Below the pieces are notes generated by a model. The model worked only from the letters and a program-made list of their open reading frames with translations, was not told where the DNA came from and did not search any database. Both the position numbers and the translations under genes were made by a program. Below, piece after piece: positions 4,958 through 64,000 of a DNA stretch of 64,000 bases; positions within the stretch are counted from its first letter, which is position 1; every line of letters begins with the position of its first letter. Source of the stretch: Owenia fusiformis (Eukaryota > Annelida > Polychaeta > Sabellida > Oweniidae); the NCBI GenBank assembly GCA_903813345.2, contig CAIIXF020000001.1, positions 47,943,885 through 48,007,884 of the forward strand, given 5' to 3'.

Positions 4958-5949
4958 CTGGCATGCATCTATACCACCATCTTCATAGCCTGCACATATC
5001 ATCTTTTGCTGGTGAATCAGTTCGACTTCTTTCTTGTGTGGAGGAGCATGTAGTTTCTGACATGTTTCATGATCAACGAGGACCTGTTTTCCCTGTCTCA
5101 GATTCTCCACAAGGACGTTCCCTCCTTAATTAATAGTGAGATTGAGATAAGGTCACCACAAATGCATCATTTGTTAAATCAATAATTATTATGCTATTTA
5201 ACATTTAGATTAAAGTTAACATCCTAAAATGGTACGCGTTTCAATATGAGTAACACGTTTTTGGCTTTAAATCATTGGTGTATGAATATGTATTATGTCC
5301 CATCACGTGCATATACTGTACAGTGTACTTACCACTTTGAGAGAGCGGTTTTGAATATCCCCACCCCGTTACGTAACATTCTCGTGGATTTGTTGTATTT
5401 TGTTCCACCTTTGGAAGACATATAGGTCTCACGTAATCACCGAGTACCAAGGGTGTCTTTAACTTCAGCAAGCACACATCATCAGTCCCGAGTTCTTTGT
5501 CCCAACCTGGGTGTACTATCATCTTCTCAACGCCTACTAACTGAGCGTTGGGATCGGGTTGTTGTCTATGGGTAGTCCCCGCTCTTATGGAAAGGATGTT
5601 GGGGTCAGTTATTGGAGTCAACCCACCGGTCCTGAAAACCAAGCACTAGTAGTATCACCAATATTCTCATATTTTACACTTTTGAACAATTTGTAATCAT
5701 ATCTCTAGACCTTAATGTTGTTTTCAACATTTGTGCTTTTTGACAATAAATCATGCTGTTGAGCTTACTTATCAATACAATGAGCTGCGGTGACTACCCA
5801 GTTCTCGTTGAGGACACTGCCTCCGCAGTCATGCATGCTCCACCCTCTCAGTGAGATCTGCCAGGGCCAAGCCCCAGTGGCGGCTATATCGCCACCAACG
5901 ACAAACGGCAGGAAGTAGCTCAACTTTGGAGATCTAGTACCGCAGATTC
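4958..5949 (-). CDS. Protease exons 38-40: trypsin-like (S1) catalytic domain, without the Ser exon
   Basis: Exon 5769-5949 has the propeptide [19 protein letters not shown] and VVTAAHC (catalytic His). Exon 5333-5631 has [14 protein letters not shown] (catalytic Asp), VRPICLP and CYVTGWG. Exon 4958-5124 has [15 protein letters not shown], in which the Asp sits at the base of the S1 pocket, so Lys/Arg specificity is expected if the enzyme is active. The next residues (GDSGG) should start a further exon below 4957, and I found none down to base 1. The residue before VVGG is Phe, not Lys/Arg. Confidence 0.85.
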
Positions 5950-11900: not shown

Positions 11901-14900
11901 AATTTTTGAATACTTTTTGTTTTGTTAAATCAACCAAAATTTACTTTGTATAACTATAATATTGAGAGGTCTAAGATATATGTTGCATATGCTATTTTTT
12001 CCAACAAGCTTCGCAAAGATATTTTATTTCATTCTCAAGAATTGGTAAAAAGGAACAAAAACAATTGCACGAAAAATAAAAATGTTAACAAAAACAGTAT
12101 AAAATACATATATAAATTATTTTCATGGATATCCAAAAGAGGACATTTAAATCTACAATATGTAAAAATATCAAAATTGTCCAAAGCAGGCGTAACGTGC
12201 ATTAGATCACTGAGTGATGAACTTCTCCAAACCTAGTCTTTTCATCCGATTTTCAATCGTATTTTGATATCCAAGAACTCGATGTACAATAGTGCATCCT
12301 ATTCAATGTACGAATTAACCAAACCATTCCAATTTCTCATTTTGAAAAATACTTAAGTTAATTTTCGGAAAATTTTGATAAATTCAACTGTTTGGTACTT
12401 TTATCAAAATTTGAAATGTTCTGAAAAATGCAAGACCGGGTAGATTCCCTACTATATCTGAAAGGAGCCGTCTTTGACTTTTTTATTGGAAAAAGAGGAA
12501 TTAACTACTAAAAGTAATAAAAGCTACAATACTTTACAGTTTTACAATGCAATTTATTTACGTAATTAAATTTTTCATTTTCGAATGAAATATGTAAGTT
12601 ACTCAATGCACCCTATCACAAGGTATTTGATACTGTGACTGTCATAGGTAAAACTCTCAATGTCAATACAATCCTAAATCTTCGTCAATTCTGTATTTTG
12701 CCCACTTTGATACGAACGTTTTGAAAAATTGCAGTTCGTGAGTTCCCCGATTACCTGTTTTGTACAGACCGAGACTACAGATAGAAATACTCCTTGAGAA
12801 GCATTCAACACGATGAATACATACATAAAAGCCTCGTGTACAAATGGTCCAATGAATCCAAAGATCCAAGTAAATCCCATGATAACAAACAACTTAAAAT
12901 ACACATCAAAATGATATCCATCATCATTTCTGGCTAGATTTGATTGTTTCCAAGATTTTATTAACGCGATTATTGTCATGGTAAACATGACAATGTTGAA
13001 CAGAATAACACATGCTAGAGGCCCTGCAAAGAACAATAAGTTGGCTTTATGATTTGTGATTTGACATACATATGCACCGTACTTTGGTTTAAATGAACCA
13101 TCATCGCCCACACTATCCATAATTAAAGCTACAGCTACTATGGTTGCAGGGAGAGTCAAAGCAAACACACAATATCGAACAAGTTGCTTCTGACCTCTAG
13201 TTGATATCTGAACAGAAACACTAAACGTACGATACATGTCATACGCAATGACCCCCATCCACATGAATGTGACCAGGTATGCGTAGTGGATGAGTATGGC
13301 AATGACTTTACACAATTCCGGGACTGTCTCTACAAAAGGTCCAAGCAGATAAAGCACACTAGAGGTGCACAACGACACCACGAGGCAGAATTGGAGTTTG
13401 CCTGGGAACGAGTGAAACACCGTAACAGACACCTGGAGAACAATACGCACCAATAAACATATAATTGACAGCGTGAGACATATGATAGAAAGAATACCCA
13501 TTACTTTGATTGAATCAAGTGTAGCTTTTTCAATGCCATAAGAACTGCGTTGAAATGTTACAGTGTTTGTTTGCCATTTAAGATATGTGGAATAGTTTAG
13601 GAGTTTAGCAGAAAGGGAAATGACTTCACAGGTTCTTGGAGCTGACCATTTCAATAATTCTTCGAAATCTTTTTTCAGCCTATTGAATGTCTCATTATGA
13701 AATCTAGCACGACTACTAGTGTAATCAGCTGGCATCTTTGCAGTGTACTCCACTGAAAATGTACCATTGAGGGTATTGCTAGTGTGATCGTACACATTCG
13801 AAAACATATACGACACGTCCGTTTGCAGTTCTCCAATAAGTGAAGGTTCAGCCAATACATCTTCATTTACCATTTTTTGAATAAAGTCAATATTTGCTCG
13901 ACTAGAAAATTGAAAATCATCAGCTATTATGTATTCCAGTGTTGCAGTGACATTAAAAGGTGTGTACACATGCTCACAAGCATTGTCTCTTAGTACAAAG
14001 CCACTCTTACACACGGCTGTACAGTTTTCAACATTGGCGCATCTAGCATCTATTTGATTTCCATCAACTGTAAATCCAAAACTTAAAACATCATTTGCCT
14101 TTGGGTTAATGTTCATAATTAAGGAAAATGAAAACGATCCTATTTCAACAACTTCTCTATTATCCGTTCGATATATTTCAACTGAACAAAATCTGTTCTG
14201 CATCATTCGCCATCCGTTGTTGAGGTTACACATGGCACAATATTCATTCTTGTATGCCTTATTTTCCATACCATACATTTGCATTGGTTCTTCACGACAC
14301 AGCTGTTTTAGTCTGTCAGACATGCACACTGACTGATTACATTCAGCTACATGAGGCCAACACTCTCGCCCGAAATCAACAGGAAATGTTATATTTAACG
14401 AGCAACGACCTTCTAAAATGAAACGTTTTAGTTTCTCAATCGATGTGAGTTTGTGTTTGGCCGACCTTTCGCATCTCACTGAAGTAGGCCATATATTGAT
14501 GTGTGACATGTTAACATTGTTACACTTAGCGCAGTTCAAGTTGACAAAGTTAAGACCTGTATTTTGATCGTACACCGGATTGTTGTTATCCAGATTCATA
14601 CTAGTAGTATCGCCTTTTGTATTTGGAAAGCAAGGTGTCTTGTTGTGATCATCACAAGCCACCACCATTGATGCGTACCTATCCATGCCATCTAGTTTTA
14701 CACAGTTTAACTCCCGTGCTACATTTCCTTGCTGTATATTTGCCTCTGTAGGACATGCCCATGCAAAGTCCTCACAGCAGTCTCCATTTATGATACAGTG
14801 TTCGTCGCAGGCACAGTGTCTTGTAGTTGGGAATTCTGTCTTTTTGCCACAATGTCCGGCACACCTATATTGGTTAGGTTGTAATTCGGTGCAATTTGCG

Positions 14901-17900
14901 ACGTCATTCATTGCCCTCTCGAGTTCCAAGCTATTGCTACACGGACTAGGAGGCCATATCGTAAATTCCATGGATTGAGTATACACCTGAATAACAGGAG
15001 GTGGGATGAATAGAGCTGTTGGTGCCACACTCGTTTCATCATCGAGCGCTGACCACATTGTCGCATAGTATGGTTGCCCTGTCATATTGTGTGGTCGTCC
15101 TGTATAACTAGCGCTTCCAGTTTCAGCCACTTGAGTTTTATCTTCAAGAGCTACGTTTGGGGCTGTTACTTCATTAGCATCCGTAATAGCGTCATCCTGT
15201 TGGTCATTAAGAACAGTCCCTGCAACTACTGTCCAAACTTCCAACAGATGACTTTTGATTATGATGCTGCCGAAGACTGCAAACAGCGTCACGAGATTCT
15301 TTGGGAGTACCATATCGCCAGAGGAAACAATATGGATTATGTTGCTTAAAGTTAATACCTTGCTTAATGCGCGAATATGATCGTTCTTGTTTGATATGAT
15401 CTCCTCACTTCCTTTGATTTATATAGTTACCCTAGTGTGCTTTATGTATTCATTAAAATGAACTAGTGGTCCTCTGATGATGAGACTGTGATGATAGATT
15501 TGAAAGCAATCTATAACAAATAATGCATTTCCATTAACTTCACTTACTAATGTTTTTCCTGATAATAGCAAACGTTCGAAAGTATCCGTTAATGTTAATT
15601 TAACAGAGATGAGGCGGTAAATAATTTATATCTTTTAACTGAATTTTGTTCAACTGTTCTTAAATGTTCATCTAATGCGAGTGACTCTAAATGCCGTTAA
15701 CAGTATCTATAGTCTTGGCATTATTGTCTGTTTATTCCCTCGTGAGAATTAATTGAATTATTCGGAATTGAGAAAAAATATTTATTATTTCCTACTGAAA
15801 ATTGTTTTTCACTAATATCACCTACACAAATACGCAATACGTAATGATATAATTTGCATTTAATCGAATTACTAAAAAGTCACCTACCTACCTACCTACA
15901 TATCGGAACAATGTTCTATTGTATCTCATTTTACTAGGAGTTCGATGGACATCGGCTTTGATAATTAATGATTCTGAGAAACAAATGCGTGAAATATTAA
16001 TCGGATAATGTCCAACTCCACCCTATTTTGTTTTAGTCGTGGTAAAACAATAGTTCATCCGTGATCTCTAGTTAAACCCGGACCCTAGTCAACTCGGACG
16101 GACCCTTATGTGTCATATATAAAATCACGACAATGGAACATATTTATGACAGTAAAAATAGGATACAAGAAAATTAATTAGTAGTTAACGACACCGATCC
16201 TTCATTTTGATTGTCATTACAATATAATTCCTATCGTTATGTTTGCCTCTAAGTTAATAATAGTTTAATAGTAATGGCATCATCTAATCTTATCAAAATA
16301 AACGTATTCAGTTGGCGCGCATTGTTGACACAAAGTATATTATTCAGCATTCTGATACTCAGACCATCTCTGCTATGCACAGGTTCTAGAAGGAAACTGA
16401 GAGAAGGCTGTGATATCTCACGATGATTATGCAGTGTTACATCACAATAATACATCAAAATGTTCTTTGATGTTCAGCTATGTATAGTCAAGTATTAGAT
16501 TAAATGTGTCTTACCGCAACCTATTTCATCAGAGGCGTCAATACAATCGGCAATTCTGTTACATTTTTTTGTGTCTGGGATGCATCCCCCTTTACCACAC
16601 TGGAATTCGTCGCCGGTACACACTTAAACATACAAGATCCCATTGCATTCAGTGTCAAGAGAAACAGTACTGCCTTCATGTGCAAATTCATACTTCATAC
16701 AAAATCTATTACTTAGTTAAAAGGTACCCTTACCACAACCAATCTCATCTGACCCATCACTACATCCAGCTATACCATCGCAGCGGTAAAATTTATGGAT
16801 ACAAGTACCATCCGAGCACTTGAATTCTTCACTTGAACAATCTAAAAATAACGTTTGTTTGTTAATGTATTATTTTTCATTTTCCATCATTTCAACATTT
16901 TTAAAGAATGCAGTAAAATTAGATGAAAATAATAACCGTAAAAATTTGTGGTTCCCACATCTGTATACTATGAACTCTAGGGTTGTGTTATAATTGTAAC
17001 ATGAGGTTTGTGCAACATAAATATAAGCTCTCATTTGGTTTGTCCAAAAAGGGCATTTGCATCCAAACTGGTTTTTAAATTTGAAAAGTTAGAATTCATA
17101 GGCAAGAAAGATGTTCAGCATGATCTAAATTCTTTCTTACTGCAATGGTGTTCGTCAGTACCATCTCCACAGTCATCTTTGTTATTACACACATAATGTT
17201 GGGGTACACACCGCTGATTGGCACACTCAAATGCATTACACACTATAACAAAACATAATCAACAAAATCATTAATAAACAATAGAACTAATGTGGCATTT
17301 GCAGAAGTTATAATGGAAGAATGGCATTCCGATACAAATTTAATTTTAAAGAAGCTCTGATGTCTGCAAAATTTCATCGATGAAACCTGTCAATTTTAGG
17401 AGATATTGCCTGCTTCAATGGTCTCCTTTTTCTGATCACTCTATATTTTGTTTGATATCAAGTGACTTTTAACTAGAGAAATAGCTAATTTGATAAATCG
17501 GTATCTTACTTGGAGGATCAGGGTGATCAGCATCCATTATGGATATATCATCCAATGCAATATCTCCTCGGTAATCTATACCTCTCACTACTTCGATGAC
17601 AATTTCAGTCTCTTCCTGGACAAGCATTAAGGACCCAAACTGCCAATCCTGACTTACTTCTCCCTTTTTTATCCACATAGACTTTATGTTTCCTTGGTGA
17701 TTAAACACAAATAAAGATCAAAAATAAATATGCATTCGAAGATACGCATGTTTTCCATACTATGGATTTTGCTTTCGAATCAATCACCACTGGAGAAAAT
17801 TCGTAGAACTATCTATAAGCATATGGTTTTGGCCAGTTGGTTTGAACATCACATAGCAGACATATTTAGAAATTTTATTTTACCGAAGGACGAAGATCAA

Positions 17901-35300: not shown

Positions 35301-36045
35301 AGATTGTTTTTACTTACCAATCATCAACATGTGCTGACATATTCAGCTCTGGACTTTATGTCCAAAGGGGGGTAAGAACCCGGGTAAGACACATCGTCAA
35401 TAAATAATTTAAGTTCTCACACTGCCTATGTTTAATTGGCTAATTCAAATCGGATGAGGTTAAAAACCAAACGCCAATTGGCGAACGTTCCGGGTATGAC
35501 GTTCGCCCTTGCTGTAACTAGAGTGTAAACTCAGTATTTTTATGTTATACTGTGTTCTGATTGGCCAAAAATACCGCGTGACACAAATAAATGACACATT
35601 CCCACATAATGGTTCATAACCTTTTTGTCTGAAGAAATTCTGACTTGTCGTTTTGCACATTAACACTACAATCCATTTTGAAACTACACAAAAATGATGA
35701 CTAGCTCACCTTGATGCACATTTATTAGCGTTACAAAATGTTTCGTCTATTCCTTTGCTGGATGGATCTTACACAAAAATGACACTCACCTTTTGGAACA
35801 TAATTTTGAAAATAAGTTATACTGATTTTATCAATGACAACTACGTATTATTTTGAATTTAATTGAATGGACTTCATTTCCGCCCTGAAAGTACAACCTA
35901 AAATCATTAGTATGTTACAAAACCTGGATGGCATGTTTGTGTAGAATTCATGTGTGTCTGCAAAGGAATGGACGAAATTTAGAGCAAATGTTGAAACGCT
36001 CATTATATTTGACCCACTTAAGCTACATATCTGAAATTTCTTGAG

Positions 36046-37152
36046 GTGCTTTCGCATTATGTCTACTTTGAAAAACTGTTGTCACAGCAGCTCCAAACAA
36101 CTTTGCTGACGAGCAGTGTGAAAGAGCAGGGAGAATGTGTACATGAACTGAGGAGGGAGCAACAGAAGTTAAGGGGAGACTTGAGCCAAAGCCTTGGCAC
36201 GTTTCAAAAGGATCTCTCCCTTGGACTCAGTTCAGTTCATGGAGCCCTACAATCCATTGCTCAAACTATAGAGCAGTCAAGATCCCCACCAGAGGAGATA
36301 AAGAGGAAACATATTCGGGGGAGCAGTGTTAACCCAATGGCACAGGAGTGGCAGGTATACCAGGATCCCATCACAGAGCACCAACTTAAGTCCCATTCAA
36401 GATACAGAGGAATAAGTCCCCGTGAGTGTGGGCAGGTGCAGTTGGAAGATAACTTTCCAAGAGAAGACACACCAATGATGTTTGAACCAGTCCCTGGGGA
36501 GTCGGGAGGTTGGCTGTCTCCATATTTGGTTCGTGAGACACGGGTAAAGCAGAAACAGGAAACTGCCTGTCAGCAAGATGACCCAGTACGCTCCACTTGG
36601 GAGAAAAGGACCACATATGGAGAGCCTCCACTGTCTCCTCCTGGAATGAGATATCAAGCTCATCCGGCGGAGGATAAGTCACATCTGGAAGGGGGGAGTA
36701 ATGGCCCTGTGAAAGGAATGCAGAGGGATTCCGATCCATTGTCTTCCTATATTGAGGATAGCGAAGAGTCCAGTGGTGTTGTGCCGAAACTTACTTCTTT
36801 GAGTAGAAGAGCAGAGAAAACAGTGGTGAAAGAAAGTCCTCAGCCCAGGTACACGCCTGAGTTGAAACAGAAGTGGCATCCAGATGAGGGGGTTGATCAC
36901 CACTTAATGATGGGGAACCCACACCTGGAGCAACCATCCCACAGTATTGATAACAAGACAAATATAGCTGACCAAGACAAAATCAAGACCGTGACTCAGA
37001 TGCATCTGACAGCGAAGAGAGCAGGGATAAAGAAGCTTCCATCTCTTCTGATACTTCGGCCAGGGATTCAGTTCTGCAAATGGCTCAGAAAGCTATCGAA
37101 ATTTGCGGAAAAGCAGTCGAATCGTCAAACACAGGGAAAAATACAAGGATAA
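36046..37152 (+). CDS. Retroelement frame 1 (Gag N-terminal, coiled-coil)
   Basis: 368 residues. The first 90 or so are heptad-like (LRREQQKLRGDLSQSLGTF), followed by a hydrophilic, Pro/Ser-rich section without a recognised domain. It overlaps the next frame by 73 bases, and that frame is -1 relative to it, so a -1 frameshift or simple decay could connect them. The true start may lie upstream of the first Met. Confidence 0.5.
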   Translation: MLSHYVYFEKLLSQQLQTTLLTSSVKEQGECVHELRREQQKLRGDLSQSLGTFQKDLSLGLSSVHGALQSIAQTIEQSRSPPEEIKRKHIRGSSVNPMAQEWQVYQDPITEHQLKSHSRYRGISPRECGQVQLEDNFPREDTPMMFEPVPGESGGWLSPYLVRETRVKQKQETACQQDDPVRSTWEKRTTYGEPPLSPPGMRYQAHPAEDKSHLEGGSNGPVKGMQRDSDPLSSYIEDSEESSGVVPKLTSLSRRAEKTVVKESPQPRYTPELKQKWHPDEGVDHHLMMGNPHLEQPSHSIDNKTNIADQDKIKTVTQMHLTAKRAGIKKLPSLLILRPGIQFCKWLRKLSKFAEKQSNRQTQGKIQG

Positions 37153-38735
37153 AACCCACACAAACGTTTGATGGATCACATCCCTGGCCAGAGTATAAGG
37201 CATATTTTCAAACATGTGTTGAAAACAATAACTGGAATGACAAAGAGAAGGCTCAGTACTTAGCCACTAACTTAAGAGGAGATGCCCAGCAGATTGTCCT
37301 GGAATTAGAGAGGGGCTACTCTTATGAAGACCTACTGGAAGCCTTGGAGAAGAGGTTCGGCCCAGGCGGCAAGGCAGATGTGTATGAGGCTAAGCTGTGC
37401 AGTCGAAAAAGAAAGCCTCGAGAATCTTTGCAAAGTCTTGGGCAACACATACGAAGACTGACCTCCATGGCATACCCGGAAATGAGCCGGGATGCTCAAG
37501 ATAGGCTCGCTCGAAGGAGCTTTGAACAGGCAATCCCAGATGAGGAGCTAAGGCGAGCCATACACCGAAAGGAGCCATCCACACTAGACAAGAGCATTGA
37601 GATTGCTCTTAGAGAGGAGAGCTATCAAGAGTCTGAGAGGATTAGACAAGGGCTCAAAGGGAGGACTAAGGAGCAAAGAATCTCGACGGTGGAAGAAGAC
37701 TCGTCTGAATTCACCAAGCTCTTACATGGATTAAAGAGGGAATTGCTGACGGAAATGAAGAATCTCTTAAAGAAAGAAGAGAGTCCGAAACCTCCAGTGA
37801 GAGATGGTAGGAGGTATCCCTGTAAGAGCTACGGGGAACGAGGCCATTCAATGACCTCTTGCTCTCAAACCAAGTGTTACAACTGTGATGGGCTAGGTCA
37901 TATTGCTTCCTCTTGTCCTGAGCCTCAGGGACACCGTAATGATTCAAGATTCAGCAATACCAGCCCTATTAGGTTTTTGTTCAATAACAATGTTGACCTG
38001 CAGCCTGGTAGTAAGCAAGTGGTGCGGAAGATTCTTGCAGATGCAAAGTTTTGTGGAACTTCCATGCAGTTCCTCATTGATTCTGGGTCCGTGCAGAACA
38101 TGATCAGCATAGAAAGCTACCAGAAGATACCTCTTTGTCGACGACCCAGTTTGAAGCCTCCATCTCAAGTATTCGTACAAGCTGATGGATCTCCCCTTTC
38201 CACGTATGGTGAGATTACTGGAGAGATAAAGATAGAAGGGAGAACAACATTGACTACAGCAGTGGTAGCTGATATTGCTCAAGCTGGTATTATTGGAGTA
38301 GAATACATGTCCACCAGTGGAGCTGTAATAAACTTCAACAAGTTGGAGATGATTTTTGATGACGGGGAGATGACAAAGCGACACCATGTGCAAGATAAGC
38401 AGACTCAAAGAACTAAGACAACATCATCGAATGCGCTTAAGAAGCAGACGCAGTCATCCTCGGACAGAGCCTCGCCACCACTACCCATGCAAAGATCTAA
38501 GAAAAACGAGAGGAGAGTAACATTTACCGAGGTTCTAAAGCAGAATAAGAAGGCAGCCTTTGATAAGAATGTTGATGCTGAGGATAGTGACCTGGAAGAA
38601 GAGGAAGCCGAAAAACCAAGAGTTATGGCCAGGGAACAACACAAGGAAGAGAATTCTACTGGGTCTGATCCACCATACCCCTTTGCCCCTCGGTCAACTG
38701 ATGGCAGACGAGGACATTCCACCCTATTCAAGTAA
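37080..38735 (+). CDS. Retroelement frame 2: Gag with zinc knuckle plus aspartic protease
   Basis: 551 residues. The Gag core has FDGSHPWPEYKAYFQTCVEN, YLATNLRGDAQQIV and ALEKRFGPGG, typical of Ty3/gypsy Gag. Two zinc knuckles follow: CYNCDGLGHIASSC is intact, while the first (CKSYGERGHSMTSC) has Tyr where the second Cys should be. A retropepsin-like part has FLIDSGSVQNMI (active-site DSG) and AGIIGVEYM near the second half. The C-terminus is Lys/Glu-rich. The protein would form particles and process itself, but the element lacks polymerase genes. Confidence 0.75.
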   Translation: MAQKAIEICGKAVESSNTGKNTRIKPTQTFDGSHPWPEYKAYFQTCVENNNWNDKEKAQYLATNLRGDAQQIVLELERGYSYEDLLEALEKRFGPGGKADVYEAKLCSRKRKPRESLQSLGQHIRRLTSMAYPEMSRDAQDRLARRSFEQAIPDEELRRAIHRKEPSTLDKSIEIALREESYQESERIRQGLKGRTKEQRISTVEEDSSEFTKLLHGLKRELLTEMKNLLKKEESPKPPVRDGRRYPCKSYGERGHSMTSCSQTKCYNCDGLGHIASSCPEPQGHRNDSRFSNTSPIRFLFNNNVDLQPGSKQVVRKILADAKFCGTSMQFLIDSGSVQNMISIESYQKIPLCRRPSLKPPSQVFVQADGSPLSTYGEITGEIKIEGRTTLTTAVVADIAQAGIIGVEYMSTSGAVINFNKLEMIFDDGEMTKRHHVQDKQTQRTKTTSSNALKKQTQSSSDRASPPLPMQRSKKNERRVTFTEVLKQNKKAAFDKNVDAEDSDLEEEEAEKPRVMAREQHKEENSTGSDPPYPFAPRSTDGRRGHSTLFK

Positions 38736-39438
38736 GCTGTTAAAGGTCCACATTGCTCCTACAGAGGAGGCAAGTCAGATGGGGATCATCGAATCGGTGT
38801 TACCAGATGCTCTAGAATCTGATGAAGTGGAGGTGGTTACTTCCCTGACAGAGGCACGAGATGGGATTGCTCCAATCAAGCTGAGGAATTGTTCTGCGCA
38901 TCCAGTTAGATTGGAGATGGGCACAATACTTGGTGTGTTTAGCTCAGTGGAGAATCTAGTGTCTCATTTAGAAGAGCCCCCAGAAGCAGTAAATCGAATC
39001 TCAGAGAAGAGAGAGCCAGTGGACAAAGAGCCGATGGCAGGACAGTTGAAAGATCGTCCACTGATAGAAGAACAAGGGGAAAGAAATCCAGCCGTGTCAA
39101 CTAAGCCAAGAAAAAGGAGGGGGAAGCATTCGAGGTCACAATTCAGGCCAAGGACCTGTGAGAGAAACAAACCTGCAAACGAGTATGCCAGAAAGAGGAC
39201 TCTGCACAGGGAGGGTTATCTCAGGAGCTCCTCACACCAGTGGTACTATCCAGCTAAGAGCTCCCCTTGTGAGAGGAACTATCCTTCTAAGAATTCATCG
39301 TACAAGGAGCATCCTCCAAAGAGCTCAATGCATCAGAAAACAAGTCCAATTGGTGCCCCTCCATGGAGCATACCTAAGTCAGCGAGCAAACGTCAGAAAG
39401 ACCAAGAGTCTTGGAGAGCTGTTAAGCTTTTCCTTTAA
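38560..39438 (+). CDS. Retroelement frame 3: Pol linker remnant with a basic tail
   Basis: 292 residues in +1 relation to the previous frame. IPPYSSKLLKVHIAP, IAPIKLRNCSAHPVRLEMGT and ILGVFSSVE resemble the segment between protease and reverse transcriptase in gypsy elements. It then changes to an Arg/Lys/Ser-rich tail (KPRKRRGKHSRSQF) where RT should begin. The deletion joint is probably near 39000-39100. No catalytic domain remains. Confidence 0.55.
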   Translation: MIRMLMLRIVTWKKRKPKNQELWPGNNTRKRILLGLIHHTPLPLGQLMADEDIPPYSSKLLKVHIAPTEEASQMGIIESVLPDALESDEVEVVTSLTEARDGIAPIKLRNCSAHPVRLEMGTILGVFSSVENLVSHLEEPPEAVNRISEKREPVDKEPMAGQLKDRPLIEEQGERNPAVSTKPRKRRGKHSRSQFRPRTCERNKPANEYARKRTLHREGYLRSSSHQWYYPAKSSPCERNYPSKNSSYKEHPPKSSMHQKTSPIGAPPWSIPKSASKRQKDQESWRAVKLFL

Positions 39439-55443: not shown

Positions 55444-58074
55444 ATGTCAAGCTCAAGATATCAAATGGTAAGTGCATACAGTTATTTATGATATTCAATA
55501 AAAAACTGAAGTTGACACAACACAAGTTGTGTTATGTGGTGGTTGTCACAATTCTTTTATTGGTGAATTTGCGTTGAATTTGCGTGGCAGACAACATTTT
55601 AAAAGATATTGAAAAGTGTACGCAGTGTGATTATCTATTGAAGTAATTGAAACCACTTTCAACTATAAAAATCACAATCGGTGTGCAGTTTGATTTGGAC
55701 AACCCCAAATCATGAAAGGTACATGTAGACTAATGATTTGAATTTGCCCAAAATCATAACTGCATACAGACTGTAGTCAAAATGCAAATCCTTTTATGTT
55801 GTATTATATTGTATTGTTATTTTATTGCATCAAGTTTGTAAGTAATTTATTATAGGTGTTGGGTCTTGTCCTTCTTGTTACTGCTGTATCATCGGTCCAC
55901 GGAGGATCGTGTCCATCTCCTTCCCCGGCCAAGGGCTACACAGATAAGGCCTACTATGGGCTGTGGTATGAAATAGGTAATTCGGAACAAGCATTTTTGT
56001 TTTTATTCAATCCACACTAGGTCCAGTATTTATGTAATTTAATTTTCGATAATGTACCTTTTGCGTTGAATCGAAGATGAAGTCCTTGGCTAAATATATA
56101 TGTTTTCATTTTGAAAGTGTTCAGACAAAATACGTATCACAACTCACACGAGTAGATCGTTCTGGCTAAAATTGCTGTTTTATTTCTGATTCTTTAAAGC
56201 ACCTTCGCTAGGATCGAGTATTCGTATATTCAAAAGTAAAGCGACTTTAAGCATATAGTTTACAATTGTCTAGGAAAAATCCAGACAGCTGGTGGTGCTT
56301 ACTTTGAAAAAGACTGTGTGTGTACTACCATCAACGTAAAACCAAAGAAAGGTGCTAACAATGGAGATGCGACTGCCGTTAACAGTTGCCGAAAGCTTAA
56401 ACCAAATGGCGACTTCCTTAACGCAACGGGTAATATGAACTACCATTTACAGTTGAAGCCACATAATCCATATAACGAAATTCACCTCTTGTCTTTTTCC
56501 TCTGCAGACGTTGCTTTTCATACTCTCTCTAACATTTTTGTCAACCCTAGTACTATACTATAGCTAGATTTTGTATATGATATAATAGCTTTCGGCAAAT
56601 AATCTTCAGGCTCGTAGCCAGCTTTTGTTTAAGGGGGTTCACTTTTCAAAAATTCTAGGGGGATTCAAATTTGGACCCCCGAACCACCCCCACCACTACA
56701 TCCCTGGCTACGGCCCTGACCTTTACGAACTAAAGTAATGATACAAGGACCTATATTTGACATAAGTATTCGCCTTGAAATACATAACAGGCAGTTTATT
56801 TTAGGAAGCTTGACCAATGAGGGACCAAAGGGGAAGTGGAAAGAGGGATTCTTTTGGTTTACTCCAAAGGTAAGTTCATGATCAGTTAACTTAACGATTG
56901 TATTTATTAATATGAGTAGGGTATTTCAGTACGAGCTAATACAAAGGCTAGACCATTTCCATGTTCATAAAAGAATCGAGATGAAATAAGAAGACGTTGT
57001 CTACATTTGAAACACTGGCCAAATATCATGAATTTATTCTTCAAAAATACAGTACAATCAATACAAGGATGTATAGATATAGAATTATATATCATTTGCA
57101 CATAGCTAGGCAAGGTTTGTCCGATTCCAGCCAATACGAACAGAGTATTCACATAATGAACAGTGTGTGAAAACTCAATAACGCATGCAAGGTCACTAGT
57201 TAAACGGTTGTCATGGTGATGAATGGACTTTTCACATTGGATTTGATGACTTGCCAACTTGAGCTTTGCAAAAAGTTTCATTGAAAATGTGTTCTTTTAG
57301 TGATTGTGTTACTTTTAGATGATTTTATTGAAAAAAAGCAATGTGTGTGAAAATAATTTAAGCCCAAGACTCAATGCATTGTAGCTGCTTCATTCCACTC
57401 AGGCGTTGTTTCCTAAACTTTGCATTTCCGCTGTGCGGTCATGCGAAGGTTTTGAAACAACACCTTCATGGTATGATTCAGCAAACAATGCATTGAGTCT
57501 TGGGCTTAAATCCTTTAATAAAAAAGTTTTAGTCCATATTTGATTCAATGTCTCCTATATCTAAATCCATTGGAGTTTTAATGGTTTTCTATTATGTCAC
57601 TCTTCTCCCTGGTCTTCTTCCAGTCTACCTTTTACTCTAGTTTTTACTCTCATATGCGAATGGTGAATTCTTATTATTTGGCCAGTACATACATATTGAA
57701 ATTGATTCGTTTGTGAACGTGAAGTAATTTAGCATTTGTATGTAAGATTTATTGGAAATCCTCGTTTAATTTTGATAAACTAATGAATATAACTTTGTCA
57801 TGACTTACATTTCAGTGATCCCAGCTTGTAACAAAAACATTGATCTGATATTTTCCAGGTGGACTACACAATCATTGAACTGGGCCCAGACTTTGCAGTT
57901 GAGTTCGACTGTGGCTCAACGTTTGGACTTGTCAACTATTGCATCCACATTCTCTCCAGGACACCTACGCAAAACAAGACTCTTACTACCACTCTACTGA
58001 AGAAAGCTATCAACATGGGACTGAATGTGGATAATCTAGACTTCAAGCAAACGCTACAAGATGGCTGCTGGTAG
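55444..58074 (+). CDS. Apolipoprotein D-like lipocalin, five exons
   Basis: Exons 55444-55467, 55856-55976, 56274-56429, 56805-56869 and 57859-58074 join in phase (582 bases, 193 residues). The signal peptide is split between a 24-base first exon and VLGLVLLVTAVSSVHG. The mature part starts GSCPSPSPAKGYTDK and has the lipocalin GxW motif in YYGLWYEIG, then GAYFEKDCVCTTINV. Near the C-terminus, DYTIIELGPDFAVEF and HILSRTPT match the ApoD-type structurally conserved regions. Secreted carrier of small hydrophobic ligands; the ligand is unknown. Ends DGCW with a Cys, as in the family. Long introns, one with a MITE. Confidence 0.88.
57358..57509. mobile_element. 152-bp MITE in lipocalin intron 4
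   Basis: TTAAGCCCAAGACTCAATGC and GCATTGAGTCTTGGGCTTAA are perfect inverted ends. The inner part is also partly palindromic (GTTGTTTC / GAAACAAC). A diverged copy lies at 51735-51864. Confidence 0.85.
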
Positions 58075-59474: not shown

Positions 59475-62400
59475 ATGTCTTCGTTCATCACCTTGTGCGC
59501 TGCTTTTGTTGCTCTTCATATCGCGCAGGTGAGTTACATCTAGAAACATAGTAAAACTAATACAGTAACTAAAGAACTTATTTGCAAGAATGGATTATAA
59601 ATCATGAAAATTTCACGCTTACAATAATTTTCAATATCAGTTTATATATGCCGTTTTGTTAATTGTCACTTCAGAACTCATTTACAAATACATTTATCAT
59701 ACTTTTATTTGTTCAAAACAATCGAGAATCTATCTCGCATATTTCAAAAACGGCACGAAATGTGTGACACCAGAACAATCTAGGAATAGTAAACATATCT
59801 AATCGTATACAATGTCTTGTAAACTTTTTCACCAGGTTGTGCTAGCAGATTATGATTTAAAAGTCCAACTCTTGAGAATCAACAACGCCAAATGGAAATA
59901 TTGTCGTAGAAAGTGTGGTCGCTCACAAATCGGTGCTTGCATCGACAAAGCTACGTCGTAAGTTGACATGAGGCTGTCGTAAAACATTTTTCAATAAATT
60001 GTTTGTTTTTTCGCCGTGTAGCCTTCTACTTTACTTAATGTTCTCTGTTAATCAAGGTAAACTTCCATATTTTCTCCCTAATTGAATTAAAAATATCATA
60101 TTGTTTCAACAGAAATGATAAATTCATCACGAATTGCGCCTATAAAGAGCGTCAGTTCACAGACGTAAGACCAAACAGAAATATTGACTTGACTAAATCT
60201 ACAGTGCTTGCTTCTACATTCAAAACGTGGCCGGTAAAGTATATATTACTTCATTTTATTCAAGACACATTCCTAAGATAATCACGTTAAACGTTTTTAA
60301 AAATAATGTGAAATGTTTTGCAAATAAAAAACACAGGGTCCTTTTAATGGAGGGAGTCCCCTCTTCTGTATCTGGTGTTGCTCACAAAAATGGTGGTTAA
60401 AAAACAGAATGCGATTATATAAAACGATAGAATGATGCAGGCTTTCCTTATTGTAGGGAAAAGTAAAACTGAAAGCTCGCACGAGACAGAACGCAAAACT
60501 CGTGACATACTTTGCCAGTCTTATCCAAATACGTCTCCCTGGTGGCCTGTATAGTAAAAAGACAGTCACTGTACGAGGGAAAGGTGTAAACCTATCAGTT
60601 CGGTAAGTTTCGCATGGACGCTTTCTGTATTAAAAATATTATACCATGATTAGTAAAAAAAATTCACACACGACTATTTAGCGGCAATTGGTAAATGACT
60701 TAAACTGATTCTTTACATAACGTCCACATGCGATGTAATGTCATCAAATTCTACTTCATCTTTTCAGCTTGACCTTTAGCTACATCTTAACGTGCAGTCC
60801 TAACTATTACGGCAGGAAATGTGAATTGTATTGCAAGGCGCCACCAAATGGAATCTGTAAAGTATCGGGTATTTTGATTTTTGCTTATGCTCCACTACAT
60901 CATATAGATAGTGAACGTTGTCCTTGGAGATCATTCTTTTTTGGTCGAAAAGGTTCGTGTGCTTTGGTACCATTATAATTCTTAGAATAATAATGGTATA
61001 ACACCATTTATATTTATCACTCATATATAGGAACCATATGGGGATATTTGTCATCACTCATCACCATTATGACGATCCAAAACATCGAGATACATTTCAT
61101 TCAAACTGGAATCAATACAAAACGTTCAAGAACAATTGAAAACTGCTCCGCTATTAAGCTACTAAGAAAGTTTATAACAGGTAGACACCGACCATATGAT
61201 TCTTTTAGTAAAATGTGGGAACAACAGGAGTTACTAAGATGAAGTAGATTTTTATCGTTTTTTTTTAATTTAAGGTGTCTGGGTGATTATCAGAAATTTA
61301 GACCAAACAGGAAATGCTTGAACCTTGAATCAGTTTTACTACTCCCATATATTATTTACATGACCAGGATCACAATGGTCATGATCGAAATGCTAGTCTA
61401 GTTTTTTCAGCCCTCTGAAAAGTGCCTGAAAAAAACTTAAAAGTTAGCATTTCCGAAAGGTCACTGAACAGAATATTTTGAATTTTTCAGGAAATGTGCC
61501 CCATATATTGCTTTAAATGATAGGAGCTTTGAAAATTAGAAAAATTGTCTGAAACAAAAATTGTGTCATAAAAAGGAAAAAAGATTTTTTCTCTATTTCT
61601 AGAAACACGTGGTACTAACTTCGACCGTTAATTTGAATCCAAACCGGATGTTTGAAAATCACGGATTACGAGTCTCATACTGCACCGTTTTTCTTCAAAC
61701 TTGCTCCATTCAAAGCATAACAAAAATCCCTTTCTGTTGGTACATTATTCTCTTAAGAAGAGTCCCTACTTCCAGCGGCATTTTGTTCCCCAGCTGAAAG
61801 AAGGCCTTCTAACAGCTGGGGACCAAAACGCTGCTAGAACAAGGGACTCTTTACAATAAAGTAATGCACCGACAGAAAGGCAATTTTGTTTTGCTTTTAA
61901 TGGTATAAGTTTGAAGAAAAACGGTGCAGTATGAGACTCGCAATCCTTGATTTACAAGCATCTGGTAGGTCAAAAATTCAAATTAACGGTCGAAGTTTGG
62001 ACCGCGTGAGAAATGAATTCAAATTTTCAAAGCTCTTATCATTGTGATCCTGGCCATGTAAATGATATATGGGAGTAGTGCAACTGACAGAAGATCAAAG
62101 CAGTACTCTGCCATCATACTTCAAAGAATTCTAAAATCCACATGTTTTTTTAATTTCCTGTTTATGGTGTAAATTTCTACCCCGACACCTAAAGGAGCTA
62201 AAAATCCAACCTCATTGTATGATTAATTTTGAAGATTGGAAATATCCCCTCTTAACACAAGATATAATTCTAACTTTTCAAACTTATTAAGTCTATGAAG
62301 CCGAAGCAAGTGTGAGCGAAGATTTTTTAATTTAGCCCCTTTTACAAAAGATTTTGCGTTCATTTTGTGCCTCACTTCATTATTTCTTCAAATGTAACAA

Positions 62401-64000
62401 TGCTACTTATTTTGGTAACGCCAACATTTAGACTAATTGCTCTTGATAATGCTTATTTCATATACATAAAATTAGGAAACCGTGTGAATGTTATCTGCAA
62501 GCGTGACTACTATGGTACAGGGTGTGGCACTAAATGTGTACCCTCAACCAAATTCACATGTGATCAGAAAACAGGAGCCAAAAAATGCAAGCCATACTTC
62601 TTTGGCAAAGACTGTGACACGGAATGCAAGCCTGGTGCAAACTACAAATGTGACAGTTCTACTGGTATGTATGAATTTTAGGATTACCTTTTGGCCATAT
62701 GTAAGTAAATGTTAATTAATAAATATGAAGTATGACATTCGTCCGCTAGTACCATCACTTTTTGCATGAACATCATTATTTCTCTATTGTCATTGTTCCT
62801 CTTTAGGTAAAAAGAAATGCAACAGAAGTTGGTATGGCCCAAGATGTGACGTAGAATGCAGATCAACATCACTTAGCAAATTCAAATGTAATCCATTGAC
62901 AGGCACTAAGGAATGCAACAAAGATTACTATGGCAAAAACTGTCAGACGTATTGTAAAGGTAGCTTTGGGTAAGATCGCTCTTACAGTCAATCTAGTACA
63001 CTACATTAGATCGTAAATTTTCCAAGTCAGCTATCTCTCAAATGTTTATTTCAATTTTAGACACTCCTGCCACCCGATACACGGTGGCAAGGTCTGCAAG
63101 CCAAACTATTATGGAGATGATTGTAAAGTGATTTGCACGGGAAACAGTAGATATACATGCGACCCAAAGACAGGAGCTAAAATATGCAATGAAGGATTAT
63201 TTGGGAAATATTGTATAACACAATGTCGACCTACTGGAAACAAAATATGTAACCCATCAGGTAAACTTATATGTAAACCTGATTATTATGGTATGCAGTG
63301 CAAGACCTTTTGCGACGATAGCGACTCAAACTATAAATGTGATGCACGAGGCAAAAAGATATGCAACCTAGGCTATTTTGGAACTGATTGTCAGACATTC
63401 TGTAAAGCTACAAAGACATATACCTGTGATGACAAGACAGGGGAGAGAAAATGTAGGAAGGGATACTATGGAAAGGAATGCAAAGTAGAATGCATAGATG
63501 GTCCTAGATATCAGTGCGACAAAGAAGGGAACAAAATATGCAGAACAAACTACCATGGCATGAATTGTAATGTACTTTGTATAACTACAATCGGAAATAC
63601 TTGCGACGAGCTAGGTAATAAGATATGCAGGCAATACTACTACGGGAATGAATGTTCCAAAAGGTGTGTACCGAGCCAGTCGTCGTATTGCGGCAACACT
63701 GGTAAGAAGTTTTGCTATGAAAATTACTTTGGACCGGAGTGTCAAACATATTGTAAGGAGACGCCACATTATATTTGTTCTCCATCTGGTCAGAAGATTT
63801 GCAGAGAAAATCAATTTGGAAGAAACTGTAACAAGAGATGCATCCCACAATTGGAATTCCAATGCAATACAACAAATGGTGAGCGGGTTTGTAATCGACA
63901 TTATTTTGGTGTTAGTTGTTTAACATACTGTAAAGAAAGCGTATCTGCTAAATGTGACAACAAAACAGGAGAAAAAATATGCAAAGAAAATTTCTATGGT
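59475..64000 (+). CDS. Secreted Notch-ligand-like protein with tandem DSL modules (3' end beyond window)
   Basis: Exons 59475-59528, 59836-59957, 60113-60233, 60457-60602, 60768-60868, 62476-62664, 62807-62969 and 63061-64000+ join in phase. A signal peptide (MSSFITLCAAFVALHIAQ) is followed by a region of about 140 residues that reads like the N-terminal C2/MNNL region of Delta/Jagged: YDLKVQLL, several Cys, FKTWPGKVKLKA, VTVRGKGVNLSV, and LTFSYILTCSPNYYGRKCEL directly before the first DSL. Then come at least 16 modules with C(x5)YYG(x2)C(x3)C(x7-10)C(x4-7)C. No EGF repeat or membrane segment is seen before the edge. Function inferred: extracellular, possibly a Notch-pathway ligand or antagonist, or a matrix protein. 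Confidence 0.75.
59836..60602 (+). CDS. DSL gene exons 2-4: MNNL/C2-like N-terminal domain
   Basis: The joined exons give about 130 residues between the signal peptide and the first DSL. Features shared with Notch ligands by position: an opening beta strand (DYDLKVQLLRI), a Cys cluster (YCRRKCGRSQIGAC), a TWPG turn followed by a basic strand, and a strand VTVRGKGV about 10 residues before the DSL. The similarity is by order and a few key residues, so the domain call is tentative. Confidence 0.5.
60768..60868 (+). CDS. DSL gene exon 5: first DSL module
   Basis: SYILTCSPNYYGRKCELYCK is the module that best matches the DSL opening of Delta/Jagged (Y.F.C...YYG..C..FC). It continues GICKVSG into the next exon. 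The tryptophan-containing end of a classical DSL (CNPGW.G..C) is replaced by CKRDYYGTGC, which starts the next module. Confidence 0.7.
61273..62190. mobile_element. Foldback element in intron 5 of the DSL gene
   Basis: AGGTGTCTGGGTGATTATCA at the left and CCCGACACCT at the right, with AAATTTAGACCAAACAGGAAAT pairing with ATTTCCTGTTTATGGTGTAAAT, form the inverted ends. The arms match 20470-21165. The centre is occupied by a second, unrelated hairpin (61605-62005). Confidence 0.7.
61605..62005. mobile_element. Nested hairpin element of about 400 bp
   Basis: TTCGACCGTTAATTTGAAT pairs with AAATTCAAATTAACGGTCGAA, and GAGTCTCATACTGCACCGTT with AACGGTGCAGTATGAGACTC. The centre is CCCCAGCTG...CAGCTGGGG near 61800. 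It sits in the middle of the outer foldback element. Confidence 0.75.
63061..64000 (+). CDS. DSL gene exon 8: eleven modules in one exon
   Basis: Open to the window edge without an intron. Modules open with CKPNYYG, CNEGLFG, CKPDYYG, CNLGYFG, CRKGYYG, CRTNYHG, CRQYYYG, CYENYFG, CRENQFG, CNRHYFG and CKENFYG (last one cut by the edge). Unit length is about 28-31 residues. Upstream modules are spread over exons 5-7 with introns, so this exon looks like a block grown by internal tandem duplication. Confidence 0.75.

Follow-up and report, generated by a model that had tools for sequence, protein, structure and literature searches.

A window of 64,000 nucleotides from the genome of the annelid Owenia fusiformis (G000:C1:47943885-48007884) contains, from position 59475 on the forward strand to its end, the first part of a predicted gene of 12 exons and 1176 residues. 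Its product probably descends from a Delta-like protein and serves as a receptor or in adhesion. The protein would comprise, in order, a signal peptide, a basic N-terminal region (residues ~23-156), 22 modules of the DSL type that characterizes Notch ligands, a Ser/Thr-rich stalk beginning at about residue 834, one transmembrane segment (residues 1053-1078, by eye) and a tyrosine-rich tail. Judging from the sequence, binding to Notch by way of the usual DSL face would not be expected, since the contact loop is missing in every module, and a surface receptor or adhesion protein is more likely than a Notch ligand. We hold with roughly even confidence the more specific reading of a type I membrane receptor, of the scavenger or adhesion type, derived from a Delta-like gene.

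When joined, the eight exons within the window encode 612 residues without a stop, their phases agree and their splice sites are GT/AG; the model was completed with 7 kb beyond the window end. Among three near-identical modules, synonymous codon differences exceed non-synonymous ones (6/1, 8/3 and 5/2), which is what translated sequence would show. A preliminary description of this DNA, made from the letters alone, had proposed a signal peptide, which we also recognize by eye. It had also suggested looking downstream for EGF repeats or a transmembrane segment; the segment is there, and no EGF family reached the Pfam cut-off on residues 835-1176. The region of ~120 residues before the transmembrane segment has no Pfam match over cut-off and no PDB match; a SEA domain was considered there, found no support from Pfam or PDB, and the region is left unnamed.

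The DSL modules and the Notch-contact loop

The preliminary description had counted at least 16 consecutive modules; 15 are complete in the window, the 16th is cut by its end, and the whole gene has 22, their hallmarks (x-x-G-x-x-C-x-x-x-C) placed between residues 161 and 799. The aromatic-aromatic-Gly start that it gave for the hallmark is strict in 19 of these and reads LFG, QFG or YHG in the other three. Cysteines mostly follow the pattern C-x8-C-x3-C-x7-C-x7/8, and the loop between the third and fourth cysteines (C3-C4) has seven residues in 19 modules and 9, 8 and 11 in the remaining three. This spacing agrees with the earlier proposal that each module shares its last half with the next: on cysteine spacing, the last hairpin of each DSL is predicted to double as the first hairpin of the following one. 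In Jagged, the DSL disulfides pair C1-C2, C3-C4 and C5-C6. As had also been claimed, no separate EGF domain stands between the modules.

Profile searches bear out the DSL identity of the modules. On the 612-residue window part, Pfam DSL (PF01414) scored 127.4 bits against a cut-off of 24.2 (E 2.4e-37), with 14 stretches at a lax threshold, and no EGF family reached its cut-off there (EGF_laminin 13.6 bits, cut-off 21; Teneurin EGF 36.4 bits, cut-off 65). When four short pieces were scanned, DSL scored 41.7, 34.5, 48.3 and 41.6 bits, above EGF_laminin every time; EGF_laminin itself passed its cut-off in three of the four (23.5, 33.5 and 27.3 bits), covering the same cysteine units, and residues 736-834 were matched by DSL together with EGF_laminin. 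The C-x-C spacing was not found in the array. A PLAC domain that reached 30.1 bits (cut-off 26.4) on one repeat piece, with no stretch of its own, was taken as cysteine-driven. A genome search with four modules scored best in the gene itself and elsewhere reached at best E 1.1e-6 (on C12), marking these repeats as distinct.

An AlphaFold model of two modules and the closing hairpin, built from seven pieces of the window itself, had a mean predicted local distance difference test (pLDDT) of 88.9 and a predicted template modelling score of 0.58; a four-module single-sequence model (pLDDT 39.9) was not used. In a Foldseek search of PDB with the two-module model, Notch-ligand chains (DLL4, DLL1, Jagged1, Jagged2 and fragments of Drosophila ligands) filled 26 of the 27 top rows, with the scavenger receptor SCARF1 at row 6. 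Template modelling scores were modest (0.55-0.62 by query) and root-mean-square deviations were 5.5-7.1 Å, so the match is one of units and not of a rigid whole. A PDB sequence search with the modules placed SCARF1 first (2e-6, with strong composition bias), followed by DLL4 (0.038). DSL is thus the best name for the modules, with a real likeness to SCARF-type repeats.

What the modules lack is the loop by which DSL domains touch Notch. In Jagged1, residue F207 presumably sits in the C3-C4 loop just before G-H-Y. According to the part of PMC3888931 that treats this residue, F207 lies on the Notch-binding face of the DSL domain, and the change F207A lowers Notch binding to background. In Notch ligands this contact loop has 11 residues and includes GHY. 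The motif GH[YF] occurs in none of the 22 modules and an 11-residue C3-C4 loop in one; in an alignment with DLL4, a four-residue gap of the module falls inside the contact loop, just before G-H-Y. By a script pattern applied to 13 other loci of the genome, 37 of 39 other DSLs keep GH[YF], the exceptions lying in L012 and L019; L022 and the first DSL of L021, judged by eye and outside that count, are likewise without it. L019 and L022 belong to the MNNL genes, so loss of the loop may have preceded the growth of the array. The complete absence of the loop from the array also argues against the divergent Notch ligand that the preliminary description had offered as one interpretation.

N-terminal region, introns and cytoplasmic tail

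The N-terminal region had been aligned by order with the C2-MNNL domain of Delta and Jagged. The sequence does have the TWPG turn and the strand leading into the first DSL that were named there, and the region occupies the MNNL position; the strand together with the DSL start finds DLL4 as its best PDB match (E 0.005). The whole region is strikingly basic, with 28 Lys and Arg against 7 Asp and Glu (isoelectric point 10.4), compared with 13 and 12 (isoelectric point 7.8) in the hand-joined MNNL of the genome's Delta-type gene. A genome search with it found no paralog past the DSL start, the best E outside its own gene being 0.24. An hhalign score of 94.9% was obtained with the DSL start included; it was carried by the DSL start and the W-P, and we do not count it as proof of a C2 domain.

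Introns connect the region to MNNL-DSL genes. Positions and phases were taken by eye from the printed codons, and the locus pairs L005/L006, L015/L002 and L016/L001 were each counted as one gene by position; L015 and L016 are the genome's strong MNNL matches on C8, where separate strong DSL matches also lie. Intron A is in phase 2 in all six non-canonical genes examined (the window gene, L004, L005, L007, L019 and L022) and falls 5 to 8 codons past the aligned cysteine, at the sixth codon in the window gene, L004 and L022; for L005 no acceptor of this intron could be placed. Intron B, in phase 0 directly behind W-P/T/N or Y-P, is found in seven of eight genes (the window gene, L015, L016, L004, L005, L007 and L019), the eighth being L022, where a pattern search did not locate it; the genome's Delta-type (FDFAWP) and Jagged-type (FDFAWT) MNNL exons end at it. 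Intron C, also in phase 2 and placed eight residues ahead of the first cysteine of the DSL, is shared by six of eight (the window gene, L004, L006, L007, L019 and L022); in L002 the frame reads through this point, and L001 yielded no result. Because other MNNL-DSL genes in the genome have introns with matching phases and positions, we infer that the N-terminal region is a diverged C2/MNNL domain.

At the other end of the protein, the tail carries NPMY at residues 1098-1101 and is marked by NPMYD, PDYDYDEV and a C-terminal block. Searched against the genome, this tail matched one other place, at C1:27857125-27857367 (41% identity, E 3.7e-10; 39% with a longer query). Both tails contain EPPIDYD, NPxYD, PDYD and P[IV][FY]YA[RK]YxGxxKLGSVRS. 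Upstream of the match lies a gene region with two CUB domains and sushi repeats, from which Pfam confirms two CUB pieces and one sushi piece; the reading of CUB, sushi and matched tail as one gene was made by eye. This region, L017-L018 (G000:C1:27856800-27874700, minus strand), is thus a CUB-sushi gene region that ends in the tail of the window gene. Given the 39-41% identity between the two, the window gene's tail is under constraint, and it may have been shuffled between receptors. In the portion of PMC8092387 that deals with Megf10 and CED-1, NPxY tails recruit phosphotyrosine-binding (PTB) proteins. The transmembrane segment and the constrained tyrosine/NPxY tail, which lie in the gene's continuation, argue against the matrix protein that had earlier been suggested, and a secreted matrix protein was set aside on these grounds.

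Possible function, alternatives and genomic setting

As a receptor, the protein could have arisen by repetition of the DSL unit of a Delta-like gene 22 times, each C-x8-C hairpin closing one DSL and opening the next. The array would form a stiff, disulfide-locked rod whose basic C2-like tip, or else whose flanks, would meet ligands carried by other cells, by particles or by matrix. Ligand binding would lead to tyrosine phosphorylation of the tail and recruitment of PTB or SH2 adaptors, and, by analogy with SCARF/MEGF10-type receptors, to uptake or adhesion signalling. More tentatively, and with rather less than even confidence, we propose a history in which the DSL first lost its Notch-contact loop and then multiplied into an overlapping polymer joined to a CUB-sushi-type signalling tail, so that a former signal sender would now read some ligand, within a large DSL radiation that is possibly an expanded recognition system.

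Several observations weigh against a receptor of Delta-like descent. MNNL (PF07657) was not matched by Pfam in the N-terminus up to E 10. Against the genome's own MNNLs, hhalign gave the N-terminus, without the DSL start, a probability of 2.5, and 55 of 992 shuffles with fixed cysteines scored as high as the N-terminus with a profile of those domains; such comparisons by themselves do not establish a C2/MNNL domain, which the gene structure does support. By eye on the translation, no full immunoreceptor tyrosine-based activation motif (ITAM), which is a paired YxxL/I, was found in the tail, where the sole YxxI is YDAI, within NPMYDAI; in CED-1 there is one YxxL. Beyond 64949, exons were joined on splice consensus and reading frame only. 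Classical Notch ligands are likewise single-pass proteins and endocytosed. Finally, as far as the relevant part of PMC5538765 goes, ligands contact Notch at a second site through their C2 domain, and this contact could persist here.

That last point belongs to an alternative we consider unlikely, namely that the protein is a non-canonical Notch ligand, a decoy or a cis-inhibitor, whose C2-like domain and first module touch Notch weakly while the array lends reach or avidity. The N-terminus and first DSL do follow the order and the introns of ligand genes, and the strand leading into the DSL resembles that of DLL4; yet the loss of the GH[YF] loop from all modules, the very basic N-terminus and a tail in common with a CUB-sushi gene all speak against it, as does the absence of EGF1-2 behind the DSL, given that MNNL and DSL of Jagged1 alone bind weakly in the data excerpted from PMC2725086. 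It is also doubtful that the protein is a homophilic or heterophilic adhesion rod serving tissue cohesion and not uptake or signalling: a long, uniform cysteine-rich array on a Ser/Thr stalk with a transmembrane segment would suit such a role, but the conservation of the tyrosine tail with the CUB-sushi gene suggests signalling or uptake. Least probable by far is convergence of EGFs of the laminin-EGF, SCARF or MEGF type on a DSL-like pattern, a family placement that the preliminary description had also raised for the laminin-EGF and MEGF types and that the SCARF1 matches and the EGF_laminin and Teneurin EGF scores favour, but against which stand the higher DSL score in every piece and in the whole window part, the lack of C-x-C spacing, the predominance of Notch ligands in the fold search and the MNNL-type introns.

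The genome has no fewer than 63 DSL matches, of which three fall within the window gene. Long arrays elsewhere in the genome alternate DSL with EGF-type domains. A tandem cluster at G000:C1:31838000-31930000 (L008-L011; about 36 kb examined) has long EGF arrays, including many near-identical EGF copies, and DSLs with added loop cysteines and GH[YF]. L013, L014 and L021 each consist of one open frame, the longest of 2193 residues, in which blocks made up of DSL, EGF-type domains and a Cys-triplet (CCC) segment recur; they represent an unusual large protein type. This wide DSL radiation is of the kind that surveys may discard as unexpected architecture; the methods as given in the available part of PMC8166818 discarded DSL matches on that ground. 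Not every DSL match should be counted as a Delta. The exons of the gene and other features of the window are listed in Table 1.

Table 1. Exons of the predicted gene and other features of the window (positions past 64000 are window-equivalent)
Feature	Position	Strand	Content
Exon 1	59475..59528	+	Start codon, signal peptide (by eye)
Exon 2	59836..59957	+	Start of C2/MNNL-like region with Cys cluster CRRKC..C; phase 2 donor, corresponding to intron A of MNNL genes
Exon 3	60113..60233	+	C2/MNNL-like region; 3' end exactly behind TFKTWP; phase 0 intron B
Exon 4	60457..60602	+	Final part of C2/MNNL-like region
Exon 5	60768..60868	+	Strand LTFSYILTC leading into the DSL, then most of module 1; intron C in phase 2, 8 residues ahead of DSL Cys1
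Exon 6	62476..62664	+	End of module 1, whole module 2, most of module 3
Exon 7	62807..62969	+	End of module 3, module 4, part of module 5
Exon 8, window part	63061..64000	+	End of module 5, modules 6-15, start of 16
Exon 8, beyond window	to 64949	+	Modules 16-22, Ser/Thr stalk
Exon 9, outside window	65205-65355	+	
Exon 10, outside window	65806-66010	+	
Exon 11, outside window	66172-66275	+	Transmembrane segment
Exon 12, outside window	66600-66885	+	Tail
Trypsin-family exon	5241-5645	-	Pfam Trypsin
Adhesion-type G-protein-coupled receptor with somatomedin B domain	12674-15418	-	914-residue open frame; Pfam Somatomedin_B and secretin-family 7tm_2
Retroelement gag/protease-like frames (by eye)	36022-39438	+	Open frames with CCHC zinc knuckle and LIDSG motif
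Exons of possible secreted protein, lipocalin-like by eye	55856-58074	+	Starts GGSCPSPSPAKGYTDKAYYGLWYEIG; two open frames, no Pfam match

Comparison with known systems

Repeated DSLs and DSLs without EGF are already known from bivalve, Capsaspora and sponge cases. Section 10 of PMC8166818 describes bivalve genes with DSL tandem repeats and no EGF domain, as in the window gene, and gives them as limited to bivalves; compared by description only, that section does not report their N-terminal domain, transmembrane segment, tail or loop state. The genome of the window gene matches the annelid erythrocruorin linker family (PF16915) over cut-off in three places, one with an internal stop, which points to an annelid; a COX1 search meant to place the species gave no match. 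A kinase receptor of Capsaspora has two DSL domains, according to the part of PMC4810162 concerned with it, and a sponge Delta without EGF is mentioned in a passage of PMC10970066. In the open-licence literature searched (main texts), we came across no tandem-DSL protein described as having an N-terminus of MNNL type, units that overlap, a lost Notch loop or a tail with NPxY.

SCARF, MEGF10, Draper and CED-1 share with the window gene a long cysteine-rich array with a YGxxCxxxC-type motif, a transmembrane segment and an NPxY tail. The window gene differs from them in lacking C-x-C and a full ITAM and in having MNNL-type introns, and EMI was not among its Pfam matches up to E 10.

Closer at hand are the non-canonical DSL genes of the same genome. 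Those with MNNL (L004, L005/L006, L007, L019 and L022) share introns A, B and C with the window gene (B not located in L022); L004, L006, L013, L014 and L021 likewise have several DSLs; and L012, L019, L022 and the first DSL of L021 are also without GH[YF]. They differ in having EGF-type domains between or behind the DSLs (by eye; none recognized in L022) and in that almost all of them retain GH[YF], usually together with an extra cysteine in the loop. Introns A and C are common to the window gene and these genes; on C8, the Delta-type gene reads through C and both MNNL exons continue past A.

Delta and Jagged, including the genome's own on C8, have the same MNNL position, intron B after W-P and the DSL directly behind; a signal peptide and a transmembrane segment are general in the family, and the window gene is predicted to have both. 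Whereas these ligands carry one DSL plus EGFs, the window gene has 22 overlapping DSLs, no GH[YF], a very basic N-terminus and a CUB-sushi-type tail. This suggests that the DSL, usually treated as the defining module of Notch ligands, can be uncoupled from Notch and polymerized with shared hairpins, and makes the gene a concrete test case for how ligand genes turn into receptors.

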